DNA of 64,000 bases from Mangrovibacterium diazotrophicum (GTDB lineage: Bacteria > Bacteroidota > Bacteroidia > Bacteroidales > Prolixibacteraceae). The notes below the pieces were generated by a model. The model saw only the letters and a list, made by a program, of their open reading frames with translations, had not been told where the DNA came from and searched no databases. A program made the translations under genes and the position numbers. Shown piece by piece: positions 7,656-62,892 of this stretch (positions are counted from its first letter, which is position 1; each line of letters opens with the position of its first letter). The stretch lies in the NCBI RefSeq assembly GCF_003610535.1, contig NZ_RAPN01000001.1, positions 1,103,320 to 1,167,319 on the forward strand, given 5' to 3'.

Positions 7656-8105
7656 CTAGCCCAGTAACCGGAAAAACAGGGCAACCAAAATACCAACGAT
7701 TACACCACCAAAGACTTCGCGAAAGGTGTGCCCCAGGCTTTCTTTCAGCTGGGCACTCTTAAATTCTTTCAGCTCTTCAAAATCGATTCTCTTCGATAAT
7801 ATATTGAGGAAACGTGCATGTTTACTGGCTTCGTAGCGCACGCCCATCGCATCGTGAATGGTGATGATGGAGAACGTAATGGCGATGGCAAAAAAGTAAT
7901 TGTCAATTCCCTCGAAAAAACCAATGGTACAAGTTAAAGCTGTTACCACCGCCGTGTGCGAGCTGGGCCACCCACCGTTCGACTTCAGCAACTCGAAATT
8001 CCATTTTCCTTTTCTAATTTTGAAATTGATCAGTTTTACTGCCTGTGCCACAACCATTGCAGTCAAAGCTGCCAAAGCTGTTTCCATTGCCGAATTCATT
8101 TGCAT
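7656..8105 (-). CDS. Divergent PAP2 (DUF212) membrane protein
   Basis: A 149-residue inner-membrane protein of the divergent PAP2 family, distantly related to phosphatidic-acid phosphatases. GGWPSSHTA (about 44-52), HDAMGVRYEA (about 83-92) and the C-terminal LGHTFREVFGG (about 128-138) match the phosphatase-type signature triad, so lipid phosphate or isoprenyl phosphate hydrolysis is plausible, though the substrate is unknown. Membrane segments include TALAALTAMVVAQAVKLI and IVGILVALFFRLLG. The start is firm: AGGAGG sits 8-9 bases before ATG 8105, a rare strong Shine-Dalgarno for this genome type. It lies downstream of the aminotransferase on the same strand, separated by a hairpin. Confidence 0.87.
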   Translation of the reverse strand: MQMNSAMETALAALTAMVVAQAVKLINFKIRKGKWNFELLKSNGGWPSSHTAVVTALTCTIGFFEGIDNYFFAIAITFSIITIHDAMGVRYEASKHARFLNILSKRIDFEELKEFKSAQLKESLGHTFREVFGGVIVGILVALFFRLLG

Positions 8106-9453: not shown

Positions 9454-9494
9454 AAAAAGCCCTTCCCGGGGCTGACCACACCGGAAAGGGCTTT
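9454..9494 (-). terminator. Attenuator terminator 2 (before the aminotransferase)
   Basis: On the minus strand AAAGCCCTTTCCGG pairs with CCGGGAAGGGCTTT (14 pairs, one G-U), then TTTTGTTTTTG. It sits between leader peptide 2 (stop at 9519) and the aminotransferase start (9420), where an attenuator terminator belongs. Confidence 0.9.
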
Positions 9495-9518
9495 GCAACA
9501 TGCAATACAGTCCCGCTC

Positions 9519-9584
9519 CTAGGTGATCAACTCCACCAGGATAACCGCGACCGCGACGAGAATATGTATTGACAATCGACTCAT
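9519..9584 (-). CDS. Leader peptide 2, Ile/Leu/Val-rich (21 aa)
   Basis: ATG 9584 to TAG 9519. Of 21 codons, 12 are branched-chain: Ile at 6, 8, 15, 20; Leu at 4, 9, 16, 19; Val at 10, 12, 14, 17. The core is SIHILVAVAVILVELI. A terminator hairpin begins 24 bases after the stop, and an alternative GGTG...CACC hairpin spans the last codons and the stop. This is the classic layout of ribosome-mediated attenuation: a ribosome stalled for want of charged Ile, Leu or Val tRNA would block the terminator and let the aminotransferase be read. It shares the SIH-ILV core with leader 1, so the two look duplicated. No ribosome site is obvious, which is usual here. No homologue search was done. Confidence 0.82.
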   Translation of the reverse strand: MSRLSIHILVAVAVILVELIT

Positions 9585-9611
9585 ATTATTTGTATCAAAC
9601 AGTAATAAAAA

Positions 9612-9640
9612 CAAAAAAGCCACCCTCCGAAGAGAATGGC
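9612..9640 (-). terminator. Attenuator terminator 1 (between the two leader peptides)
   Basis: On the minus strand GCCATTCTC pairs with GAGGGTGGC (two G-U pairs) around a stable TTCG tetraloop, followed by TTTTTT. It lies 41 bases after the stop of leader 1 and 27 bases before the start of leader 2. Confidence 0.9.
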
Positions 9641-9681
9641 CTTGCTCCAATAGCTTTAATATTTTTTGTCCATACTCTTCC

Positions 9682-9744
9682 CTAGCCCAACGCGATGACC
9701 GCGAGTGCGACGACGAGAATCGTATGAATTGAATTGCTTTGCAT
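9682..9744 (-). CDS. Leader peptide 1, Ile/Leu/Val-rich (20 aa)
   Basis: ATG 9744 to TAG 9682. The core SIHTILVVALAVIAL has 9 branched-chain codons out of 20: Ile 6, 9, 17; Leu 10, 14, 19; Val 11, 12, 16. It is the first of two similar leaders. SIH at residues 5-7 and ILV just after are shared with leader 2, although the DNA between the matching codons has diverged. Its own TTCG-loop terminator follows. Transcription probably begins just upstream: TATCTTTC near 9758-9765 on the minus strand matches TAnnTTTG in 7 of 8 positions. Stalling here would need to be overcome before the second unit is transcribed, which would give two gates in series. Confidence 0.8.
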   Translation of the reverse strand: MQSNSIHTILVVALAVIALG

Positions 9745-9873
9745 TGTTTTCACAAAGGAAAGATAATTTTCAGCCCTGCAAAGTTTCAGTTTCCTTTTTT
9801 TCAATTTTCATTCGAAAAATTTAAAATGGGCACGGAATGTTAACAAAAACGACCAAACAAGGACTTAGCTAAA

Positions 9874-11172: not shown

Positions 11173-12783
11173 CTAATACACATCTTCGCAATAGCGATTA
11201 TCGGCTTGCAATTGATCCACCGTCAGGCCATTATCTTCGGCCTGCAACAACGCATTGATGGTTTGCTTAACGCTTTGCCCCATCTTTATCGAGCCACACA
11301 CGTAAATATGTGCACCTTGGTCAATCCACCTCAGCAGTTCAGTACCTTCTTTCAATACGGCATCCTGCACGTAGAATTTCGTCGATTGGTCGCGGGAGAA
11401 AGCCAAACTCACATTTTCCAGCAAACCTTCACGTTTCCATCCATCCAATTCTTCGCCATATAAATAATCAGACTTTCGCGTCTTTTCGCCAAAGAATAAC
11501 CAGTTTCGGGTATTTGTATGCATTCGGCGTTCCTGTAAAAACGCACGAACGGGAGCAATACCAGTCCCGGCTGCGATGAAAATTGCCGGCGTTGAAGAAT
11601 TGACAGGCAAACGGAATTCATCGTCGGGCGCGATGAAAAACGAAACAGCCGTGCCAACTTCCAACCATTCACTCAAGTAAGTTGAACAGGAGCCTTGACG
11701 TTCGCGATTCTTGTGGTTAAACCGCACCTGTTTTACTGTTAGCTGCAGCTCATCAGCATTCATTTGCTGGAAGGATGAAATCGAATAATAGCGGATTTTC
11801 AACTTGTCGGGTAAACTAACCAATTGCGATGTATTAAACAGATACGGGAAGTCGTTCAACATATCCATCAAATCATGCTTACGTTGGTAATCCAAACTCG
11901 CCTTGTCGTCTGCCAGTAGGTCCGACAGATTTTCGTCGCCCGATAAATCAGCATAACGCTTCATAACCCCACGACTCAAGGTCGTTATTTCAGCTTTTGT
12001 CAAGAGAAACTCGCGAAGGCAAAGACCTTCTTCCTCTCGAATCAACTCTTCTGGATTTAGTCCGGTCTTAGCGACAATCAGTGCGACCAATCGTGGAGAG
12101 TTTTGTGGCGCAACGCCAATGGAATCACCTGATTTATATTGCACTTCTCGCCCGTTAATAGCCAAACTGATGTGATACACCCCTTCTGCGGACTCCGGAT
12201 TGAGACATCTTTTTTCTTTAACAATTGCTTTCTTCCACGATCGATTCTTTTGCTCCTCAATGAGAAAAGAATCACCATTCGAGCTCCCTGCCAATAATTT
12301 AGAGACCGTTGAAATCCAGCCGGCAGCGTTCGTTTCAAACGCTTCATCACAGTCTACACGCGGAGAAAAGGGTTTGGCACCGCTGTCAAGCAAAAGCCTT
12401 TCCAGTGTCTTTCCGGCCTCGCAAAAATGCTCGTAATCCGAATCGCCCAACGCGCATACCGAAAACTCAAGATGATCAAGTTGAATCTGTTTATTCTTTA
12501 AGTGCTTGAAAAAACGGACAGCTACCGGAGGTGGATCGCCCTCTCCATGAGTGCTCACCACAAAAAGAACTGTCTTTTCCGAAGCCAGGTTCTCTGCTTT
12601 AAACGACGACATATTTTTCAGCCGCACTTTCTTGCCTTTCTCCTTTAAATGTCGAAAAGTCTCACTGGCAACAAACTCTGCGTTGCCTGATTTTCCGCCA
12701 AATAATATCGTAATTAAACCTGTTTCGGCTGCAAGCTGCTGCTCACCAAAAAACTTCCGTATCGTTCCAAACATCCTTTTCAA
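11173..12783 (-). CDS. CysJ-like diflavin (FMN/FAD) reductase
   Basis: A 536-residue electron-transfer flavoprotein. The N-terminal flavodoxin domain (about 22-160) carries STHGEGDPP and CALGDSDYEHFCEAGK for FMN. An FAD domain follows, with RYYSISS (FAD-binding) and RQGSCSTYLSEWL. The NADPH domain has GTGIAPVRAFLQER, FFGEKTRKSDYLY and YVCGSIKMG, and the chain ends in RYCEDVY with the terminal aromatic residue of CysJ. It is about 60 residues shorter than E. coli CysJ at the N-terminus. No sulfite reductase hemoprotein gene (cysI) lies in the window, so the electron acceptor is open. A TTG-N20-TAACTTTG promoter lies upstream. Confidence 0.87.
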   Translation of the reverse strand: MKRMFGTIRKFFGEQQLAAETGLITILFGGKSGNAEFVASETFRHLKEKGKKVRLKNMSSFKAENLASEKTVLFVVSTHGEGDPPPVAVRFFKHLKNKQIQLDHLEFSVCALGDSDYEHFCEAGKTLERLLLDSGAKPFSPRVDCDEAFETNAAGWISTVSKLLAGSSNGDSFLIEEQKNRSWKKAIVKEKRCLNPESAEGVYHISLAINGREVQYKSGDSIGVAPQNSPRLVALIVAKTGLNPEELIREEEGLCLREFLLTKAEITTLSRGVMKRYADLSGDENLSDLLADDKASLDYQRKHDLMDMLNDFPYLFNTSQLVSLPDKLKIRYYSISSFQQMNADELQLTVKQVRFNHKNRERQGSCSTYLSEWLEVGTAVSFFIAPDDEFRLPVNSSTPAIFIAAGTGIAPVRAFLQERRMHTNTRNWLFFGEKTRKSDYLYGEELDGWKREGLLENVSLAFSRDQSTKFYVQDAVLKEGTELLRWIDQGAHIYVCGSIKMGQSVKQTINALLQAEDNGLTVDQLQADNRYCEDVY

Positions 12784-62808: not shown

Positions 62809-62892
62809 GCCCAGATGGTGGAATTGGTAGACACGCTAGTTTCAGGGACTAGTGACCGCAAGGTTGTGCAAGTTCGAGTCTTGTTCTGGGTA
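62809..62892 (+). tRNA. tRNA-Leu (anticodon CAG)
   Basis: 84 bases with a long variable arm, as in Leu tRNAs. The acceptor arms GCCCAGA and TCTGGGT pair (one G-U), followed by A73. The D-arm is TGGTGGAATTGGTAGACA. The anticodon arm CTAGT-TTCAGGG-ACTAG reads CUG codons with CAG at positions 34-36. The T-arm has GTTCGAGTC. CCA is not encoded. It is a stand-alone gene with its own promoter element and terminator. Confidence 0.96.

Follow-up and report, generated by a model that had tools for sequence, protein, structure and literature searches.

Ribosome-mediated attenuators control the branched-chain amino acid (BCAA) operons ilvGMEDA and leuABCD of Escherichia coli. These operons, like ilvBNC of Corynebacterium glutamicum as outlined in PMC9834717, resemble the locus described here in that a leader peptide rich in Ile, Leu and Val (I/L/V), alternative hairpins and a terminator precede a BCAA gene. 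Each of those systems has one leader, whereas here two leaders stand in series before a single aminotransferase gene and contain much alanine. For ilvBNC, the title of Morbach et al. (2000), cited in PMC9834717, speaks of a leader peptide whose formation needs no ribosome binding site.

Paired control elements upstream of a gene have also been reported. The leader RNA of Salmonella mgtCBR, as presented in PMC3641672, carries two short ORFs and two attenuators, like the present locus. Its signals differ from each other (ATP and proline), whereas our leaders look alike in signal, and its authors see no intrinsic terminators there, whereas both leaders have them here. Tandem homologous riboswitches, according to the account in PMC9481103, likewise place two like sensors in series, some with separate expression platforms, and a more digital response has been proposed for them; they sense by aptamer, whereas sensing by a translating ribosome is predicted here. 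Two leader peptides also precede ermB, for which PMC8274638 describes erythromycin-induced translational attenuation, in contrast to the starvation-linked transcription termination predicted at our locus. Leader peptides are further described before amino-acid biosynthesis operons of Flavobacterium psychrophilum (PMC9723704) and in 5′ regions of the Bacteroidota member Bacteroides thetaiotaomicron, where the BT_4401 5′ UTR contains several putative short ORFs (PMC7366714); the sections of these two reports on leader peptides describe no two attenuators in tandem with a terminator for each. A literature search covering tandem or double attenuators, Bacteroidetes leader peptides, tandem riboswitches and avtA leaders yielded one clear precedent, mgtCBR, and older comparative attenuator surveys in subscription journals may describe leaders like these from Bacteroidota. 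The mechanism class is already known; the conserved tandem pair of like signal is new.

The locus lies in the window, by which we mean the whole 64,000-nucleotide stretch of Mangrovibacterium diazotrophicum DNA that was analysed. On the minus strand, leader 1, terminator 1, leader 2, terminator 2 and the aminotransferase gene follow one another (Table 1). An earlier note had described two I/L/V-rich frames, each ending before a strong terminator, in series upstream of the aminotransferase. Its coordinates and layout proved correct, as did its codon counts (I/L/V at 9 of 20 residues in leader 1 and 12 of 21 in leader 2), and both terminators were recovered. Terminator 1 was detected by a consensus scan as a stem of 12 pairs (9643-9616) followed by TTTGTTTTTA; the same scan caught terminator 2 just as an inner 5-pair stem (9473-9458), and the full terminator 2 was identified by pattern and folding. 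The consensus scan returned five terminator-like sites in 3 kb, which is not more than in shuffled sequences (mean 3.3, sd 1.7). When 20,000 random 291-nt pieces of the window were drawn, pieces overlapping the locus included, at least one I/L/V-rich frame (15-45 aa from an ATG, I/L/V ≥45%) was present in 78 pieces and at least two in 9. A T-box or other named Rfam motif was rejected for the leader region (no match at gathering score); the sole match above gathering score in the whole window was a tRNA at 62809. Beyond the earlier note, the analysis brought out antiterminators, 1:2 hairpins, alanine in both leaders and, elsewhere in this genome, tandem leaders ahead of the ilvD operon. As to neighboring genes, the aminotransferase gene is followed after 112 nt by a DUF212 (divergent PAP2) gene on the same strand (7656-8105, minus), and a CysJ-like sulfite reductase flavoprotein, whose best model match is under its cut-off, is encoded at 11173-12783 (minus).

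Table 1. Features of the tandem leader locus; positions refer to the window except for ilvD, which is given on G000:C3
Feature	Position	Strand	Basis or remark
Putative -7 promoter box TTCCTTTG	9753-9760	minus	by eye; TAnnTTTG with one mismatch, shortly before leader 1
Leader peptide 1, MQSNSIHTILVVALAVIALG, then stop	9744-9682	minus	frame read; kept in relatives
Element 1 region 1, Ile-His codons	9722-9728	minus	pairs with GTATGGA 9675-9669; weak covariation
Element 1 region 2, GAAGAGTATGG	9670-9680	minus	5′ strand of antiterminator 1; weak covariation
Element 1 region 3, CCATTCTCTTC	9629-9639	minus	common to antiterminator 1 and terminator 1 (5′ arm)
Intrinsic terminator 1	9613-9643	minus	consensus scan
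Leader peptide 2, MSRLSIHILVAVAVILVELIT, then stop	9584-9519	minus	frame read; kept in relatives
Element 2 1:2 hairpin	9522-9537	minus	GGTG 9537-9534 with CACC 9525-9522, inside last leader 2 codons
Element 2 region 2	9513-9531	minus	last leader 2 codons, stop and next bases; 5′ strand of antiterminator 2
Element 2 region 3	9471-9489	minus	3′ strand of antiterminator 2, made of the terminator 2 5′ arm and loop
Intrinsic terminator 2	9454-9493	minus	pattern and folding; -22.1 kcal/mol
LysN-like class I/II aminotransferase (PF00155), 400 aa	8218-9420	minus	gene predicted to be regulated; model match
ilvD of the window's genome (L049/L075, G000:C3)	218095-219858	minus	tandem leaders upstream

Both elements have the predicted anatomy of classical ribosome-mediated attenuation, in which a 1:2 hairpin, a 2:3 antiterminator and a 3:4 terminator can form. 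Covariation is strong for element 2 and weak for element 1. Antiterminator 2, at -20.8 kcal/mol in the window, was compared over 23 loci with pairings to partners swapped in from other clades: the native partners gave -18.3 kcal/mol versus -12.1 kcal/mol (0/5000 permutations, phylogeny ignored), and the native partner was no better than the mean swap at two loci (L041, L042). Among 21 sequences, both sides had changed in 10 of the 16 pairs of antiterminator 2, and 82.3% of the cells were paired versus 35-50% when the strands were slid. Changes on both sides were also observed in 5 of 7 pairs of the 1:2 hairpin (73.5% paired versus 29-58% slid) and in 7 of 13 pairs of terminator 2 (98.5% paired). 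RNAalifold, supplied with no structure, recovered the 1:2 pairing and the terminator of both elements. The leader 2 consensus is approximately IAAVAAIILVxxxT. At L014 and L041 the leader 2 frame is still open at 42 and 38 codons, respectively; these two loci have apparent extra sequence inside leader 2, partly palindrome-like.

The same swap in element 1, over 22 loci and again ignoring phylogeny, gave -12.5 kcal/mol for the native antiterminator 1 versus -10.5 kcal/mol (0/5000 permutations), and -9.7 versus -8.7 kcal/mol for the 1:2 helix (22/5000). Averaged over the loci, the swap, like conservation, speaks for antiterminator 1, but the native partner was no stronger than the mean swap at 4 of the 22 loci for antiterminator 1 (L012, L023, L024, L034) and at 6 for the 1:2 helix (L012, L023, L034, L027, L017, L028). 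In a fixed register, the paired percentage and the covariation score of antiterminator 1 were reached by 100 and 39 of 500 shuffles, and those of the 1:2 helix by 22 and 12 of 500, counts that lie near chance because the arm hardly varies. Terminator 1 was 100% paired by pair counts. Minimum-energy folds of the window sequence switched as the model predicts when the stretch under a stalled or terminating ribosome was removed, with the limit that the complete element 1 RNA folded as the terminator even when a ribosome was stalled on it; antiterminator 1 won only before the 3′ arm of terminator 1 was made, and antitermination in element 1 would therefore have to be kinetic. In leader 1 (consensus approximately IHIILVxAVA) the His codon is kept in 20 of the 21 leaders counted, L017 being the one without it; the likely reason for its retention is pairing in the 1:2 helix (CATA with TATG), not histidine itself.

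Conservation was scored over non-redundant loci. Duplicates and near-identical species (L009, L010, L011, L015, L018, L032, L033, L035, L039, L043) were left out, and L019, where the gene directly follows ilvD and has no leader of its own, was set apart; alignment A1 was made without L037 and L038, and alignment A2 without L037, L038 and L025. Both frames and both terminators were found in 22 of the 23 loci, window included. In L025, where a contig end cuts the locus, element 2 only is visible, and at the loci with enough upstream DNA the two frames and two hairpins of the earlier note were conserved throughout (22/22, window included). Substitutions at the three codon positions, counted in six chosen locus pairs, numbered 16/18/31 in leader 1 and 24/15/29 in leader 2, a bias to third positions that is only modest.

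The aminotransferase gene is present in 23 of 140 genomes of the family Prolixibacteraceae, phylum Bacteroidota (E 1e-90), and exactly these 23 genomes gave strong covariance-model matches to both elements. Strong matches ranged from E 1.2e-16 to 2.1e-10 for the element 1 model (next, 1.1e-6) and from 1.4e-19 to 2.8e-11 for the element 2 model (next, 3.0e-5); the 117 family genomes without the gene had no strong match to either model. Because the models were built from the same loci and match these by construction, the absence elsewhere is the informative part. At E ≤0.01, some match was seen in 112 of the 140 genomes for the element 1 model and in 63 for the element 2 model. The genome scans scored 25-27 candidates per genome under strict filters. 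In G158, the element 1 match is on a different contig from the gene and its terminator has no clean T tract. A class-wide spread of the gene was rejected, since of 375 Bacteroidia genomes 2, counting that of the window, carried it at E 1e-92. The nearest named relatives by aminotransferase sequence, each 86% identical, are Mangrovibacterium lignilyticum, M. marinum and a MAG filed as Sunxiuqinia, in keeping with a Mangrovibacterium-like source of the window.

Placing the two attenuators in series, as the earlier note did, would be at odds with transcription that begins between the first terminator and the second leader. In the loci scanned, this interval showed no conserved promoter, and the distance from the end of terminator 1 to the start of leader 2 was ≤21 nt in 14 of the 19 loci measured (leader starts chosen by the analyst), so that at those 14 there is no room for a promoter outside terminator 1. 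A candidate promoter was found upstream of leader 1 instead. TAnnTTTG is the flavobacterial sigmaA -7 box, as given in PMC9723704, and a putative box like it (≤1 mismatch) starts 13-17 nt before leader 1 as the scan's best match in 10 of 21 loci; in L001, L024, L028 and L042 an equal-scoring putative box was seen by eye at the same place. For the window's own putative box, the scan lists an overlapping box of equal score. If the box occupied -12 to -5, leader 1 would begin a few bases after the 5′ end of the transcript. Given this putative box and the short gaps to leader 2, both terminators are probably in series on one RNA.

A different arrangement would have only element 2 at work: terminator 1 would end a short RNA of its own, and leader 2 and the gene would be driven by a second promoter. 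The gap does hold loosely promoter-like sequence, by eye, in the window (TACTGTTTG) and in L020 (TAATGTTTG), and the weaker covariation of element 1 would fit. We nevertheless consider this arrangement quite unlikely, since with the gaps found at most loci the promoter would have to overlap terminator 1, and since the 23 genomes that have the gene are also the ones that have the two elements.

In the window's genome, I/L/V leaders also stand in tandem before the ilvD operon (MKLSAIISNVVILLVVVISQAK and MKHYSTYFPVVRLLVILRKT), and a terminator-like hairpin comes after each of them. Upstream of leuA there is one leader, MTKISTISILGILLGILLWMRD, again with a terminator-like hairpin behind it (L148, G000:C3:211500-213200). 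Thirty ilvD loci were found and, with L073 (partial gene) left out, 29 were read: 7 have two tandem leaders, 20 have one, 1 has none and 1 has no upstream DNA. In this tally, 11 loci, among them all 7 tandem ones, were read in sequence and the rest as frame lists, and terminators were judged by eye. The tandem cases come from the window's own genome, three others of its genus, and G005, G015 and G019; G158 is a further one. The element 1 model matched weakly just upstream of ilvD, for example in G006, G018, G011, G007, G008, G012 and G005, and the element 2 model weakly matched element 1 of G023, G155, G024 and G035; from these cross-matches the attenuators look related.

Shine-Dalgarno sequences are rarely used in Bacteroidota, so that sequence alone cannot tell whether the frames are translated. 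The hairpins might then be plain terminators or RNA-stability structures, and the frames hydrophobic small proteins or products of chance. This is very improbable given the covariation, strong in element 2, of the alternative pairings that join terminator arms to leader codons, and given that I/L/V-rich leaders recur before ilvD (27 of the 29 loci read) and before leuA of the window's genome.

We therefore favor, with considerable confidence, a single transcript on which two classical ribosome-mediated transcription attenuators act one after the other. The sequence itself gives the frames, the terminators, the possible alternative pairings, their conservation and their co-occurrence with the gene. 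The course of events that we infer from it, with translation, stalling and termination on one transcript and with the amino acids sensed, is as follows. Transcription would begin immediately upstream of leader 1. A ribosome stalled on Ile, Val, Leu and probably Ala codons of either element would cover region 1, region 2 would pair with region 3, and the terminator could not form. A ribosome at the stop codon would cover region 2, which would let the terminator form; without translation, regions 1 and 2 would pair and the terminator would again form. The aminotransferase gene would be reached only if the polymerase passed both terminators, so read-through would be approximately the product of two probabilities.

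The amino acids that the two elements would sense can be compared through leader composition (21 leaders 1, L016 being absent from the counts, and the last 16 residues of 22 leaders 2). Leaders 1 and 2 contain 19% and 19% Ile, 8% and 8% Leu, 14% and 19% Val, and 19% and 20% Ala, respectively. It is possible to imagine a two-input design, in which the leaders sense different amino acids (e.g. Ile/Leu versus Val/Ala) by AND logic, and the placement of the control codons lends it something: they follow region 1 in leader 1 (I-I-L-A/V) and precede it in leader 2, where an Ala-rich part comes first and I/V/L codons next. Because the overall compositions are almost equal, the arrangement looks like a same-signal (gain or dynamic-range) design rather than a two-input gate, and we hold the latter to be unlikely.

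Alanine sets these leaders apart from those of ilvD. It accounts for 77 of the 407 residues counted in leaders 1, for 72 of the 352 in leaders 2, and for 14 of 109 in five leaders from other families of the order, compared with 24 of 680 in 33 ilvD leaders of the same family and order. The resulting contrast of 19-20% versus 3.5% is inflated by kinship among the leaders and could be biased against Ala-rich leaders at ilvD, where leaders were chosen with a 36% I/L/V filter, plus one by eye. The main alternative to alanine sensing is an RNA constraint on GCN codons. Such a constraint may act on the alanine codons of leader 2; RNAalifold placed no conserved pairs on alanine codons in either element. 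In the window's leaders GTC makes up 5 of the 7 Val codons (hand count) versus 13% in 29 long ORFs of the window.

The aminotransferase itself falls in the LysN/2-aminoadipate aminotransferase group by its match to solved LysN-type enzymes. The closest structures are 1x0m (E 6.6e-81), 2egy (E 4e-78; named alpha-aminoadipate aminotransferase by its depositors) and 3aov. None of the NCBIfam cut-offs was reached among the 25 of 63 matches listed, and the valine-pyruvate transaminase AvtA was rejected as an assignment (NF006967, 119.6 bits versus a cut-off of 402). The earlier note had assigned the LysN-like enzyme to branched-chain metabolism, and gene neighbors outside the family back this. An order-wide search of 344 genomes with the G040 homologue as query (E 1e-105) gave 9 matches besides the window's own, G040 included. 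In G040, the gene lies between ilvD (by model) and ilvB (by reading of the frame), and in G261 it lies between the same two genes, both recognized from cut frames that match the models. The frame preceding it in G181 and G168 has acetolactate synthases as its best matches, is cut by the locus ends and falls below cut-offs. These neighbors, in 4 of the 9 relatives, support a branched-chain role for the enzyme, as read from gene order. Leaders were also seen before the order homologues, two in tandem in G458 and G270 and one in G356 and G436; none was found in G256. That the enzyme is the sole BCAA aminotransferase was rejected, since class IV aminotransferases (PF01063) were present in every one of the 61 genomes searched, 60 relatives plus that of the window.

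Because the leaders are alanine-rich and the gene is linked to the pathway, the data suggest a transaminase that joins alanine and branched-chain amino acids. C. glutamicum AvtA joins the same substrates, as described in PMC9834717. The conservation of the pair in relatives suggests that two attenuators would give a sharper on/off response than a single switch. In its full form, the proposal is that a tandem of like elements reads BCAA and alanine codons and multiplies terminations, which would make a steep switch for an alanine/branched-chain transaminase, with ilvD controlled alike; we advance it tentatively, as somewhat less than an even chance.

The pair offers a function for a vaguely annotated aminotransferase. 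Because a same-signal pair is present in 23 of 140 family genomes and tandem leaders precede ilvD at 7 of 29 loci, it can now be asked whether the gain from a second like attenuator is lower leak, larger range or steeper response. If the proposal is true, Bacteroidota would have made repeated use of ribosome-sensing attenuators in series as a means of regulation.
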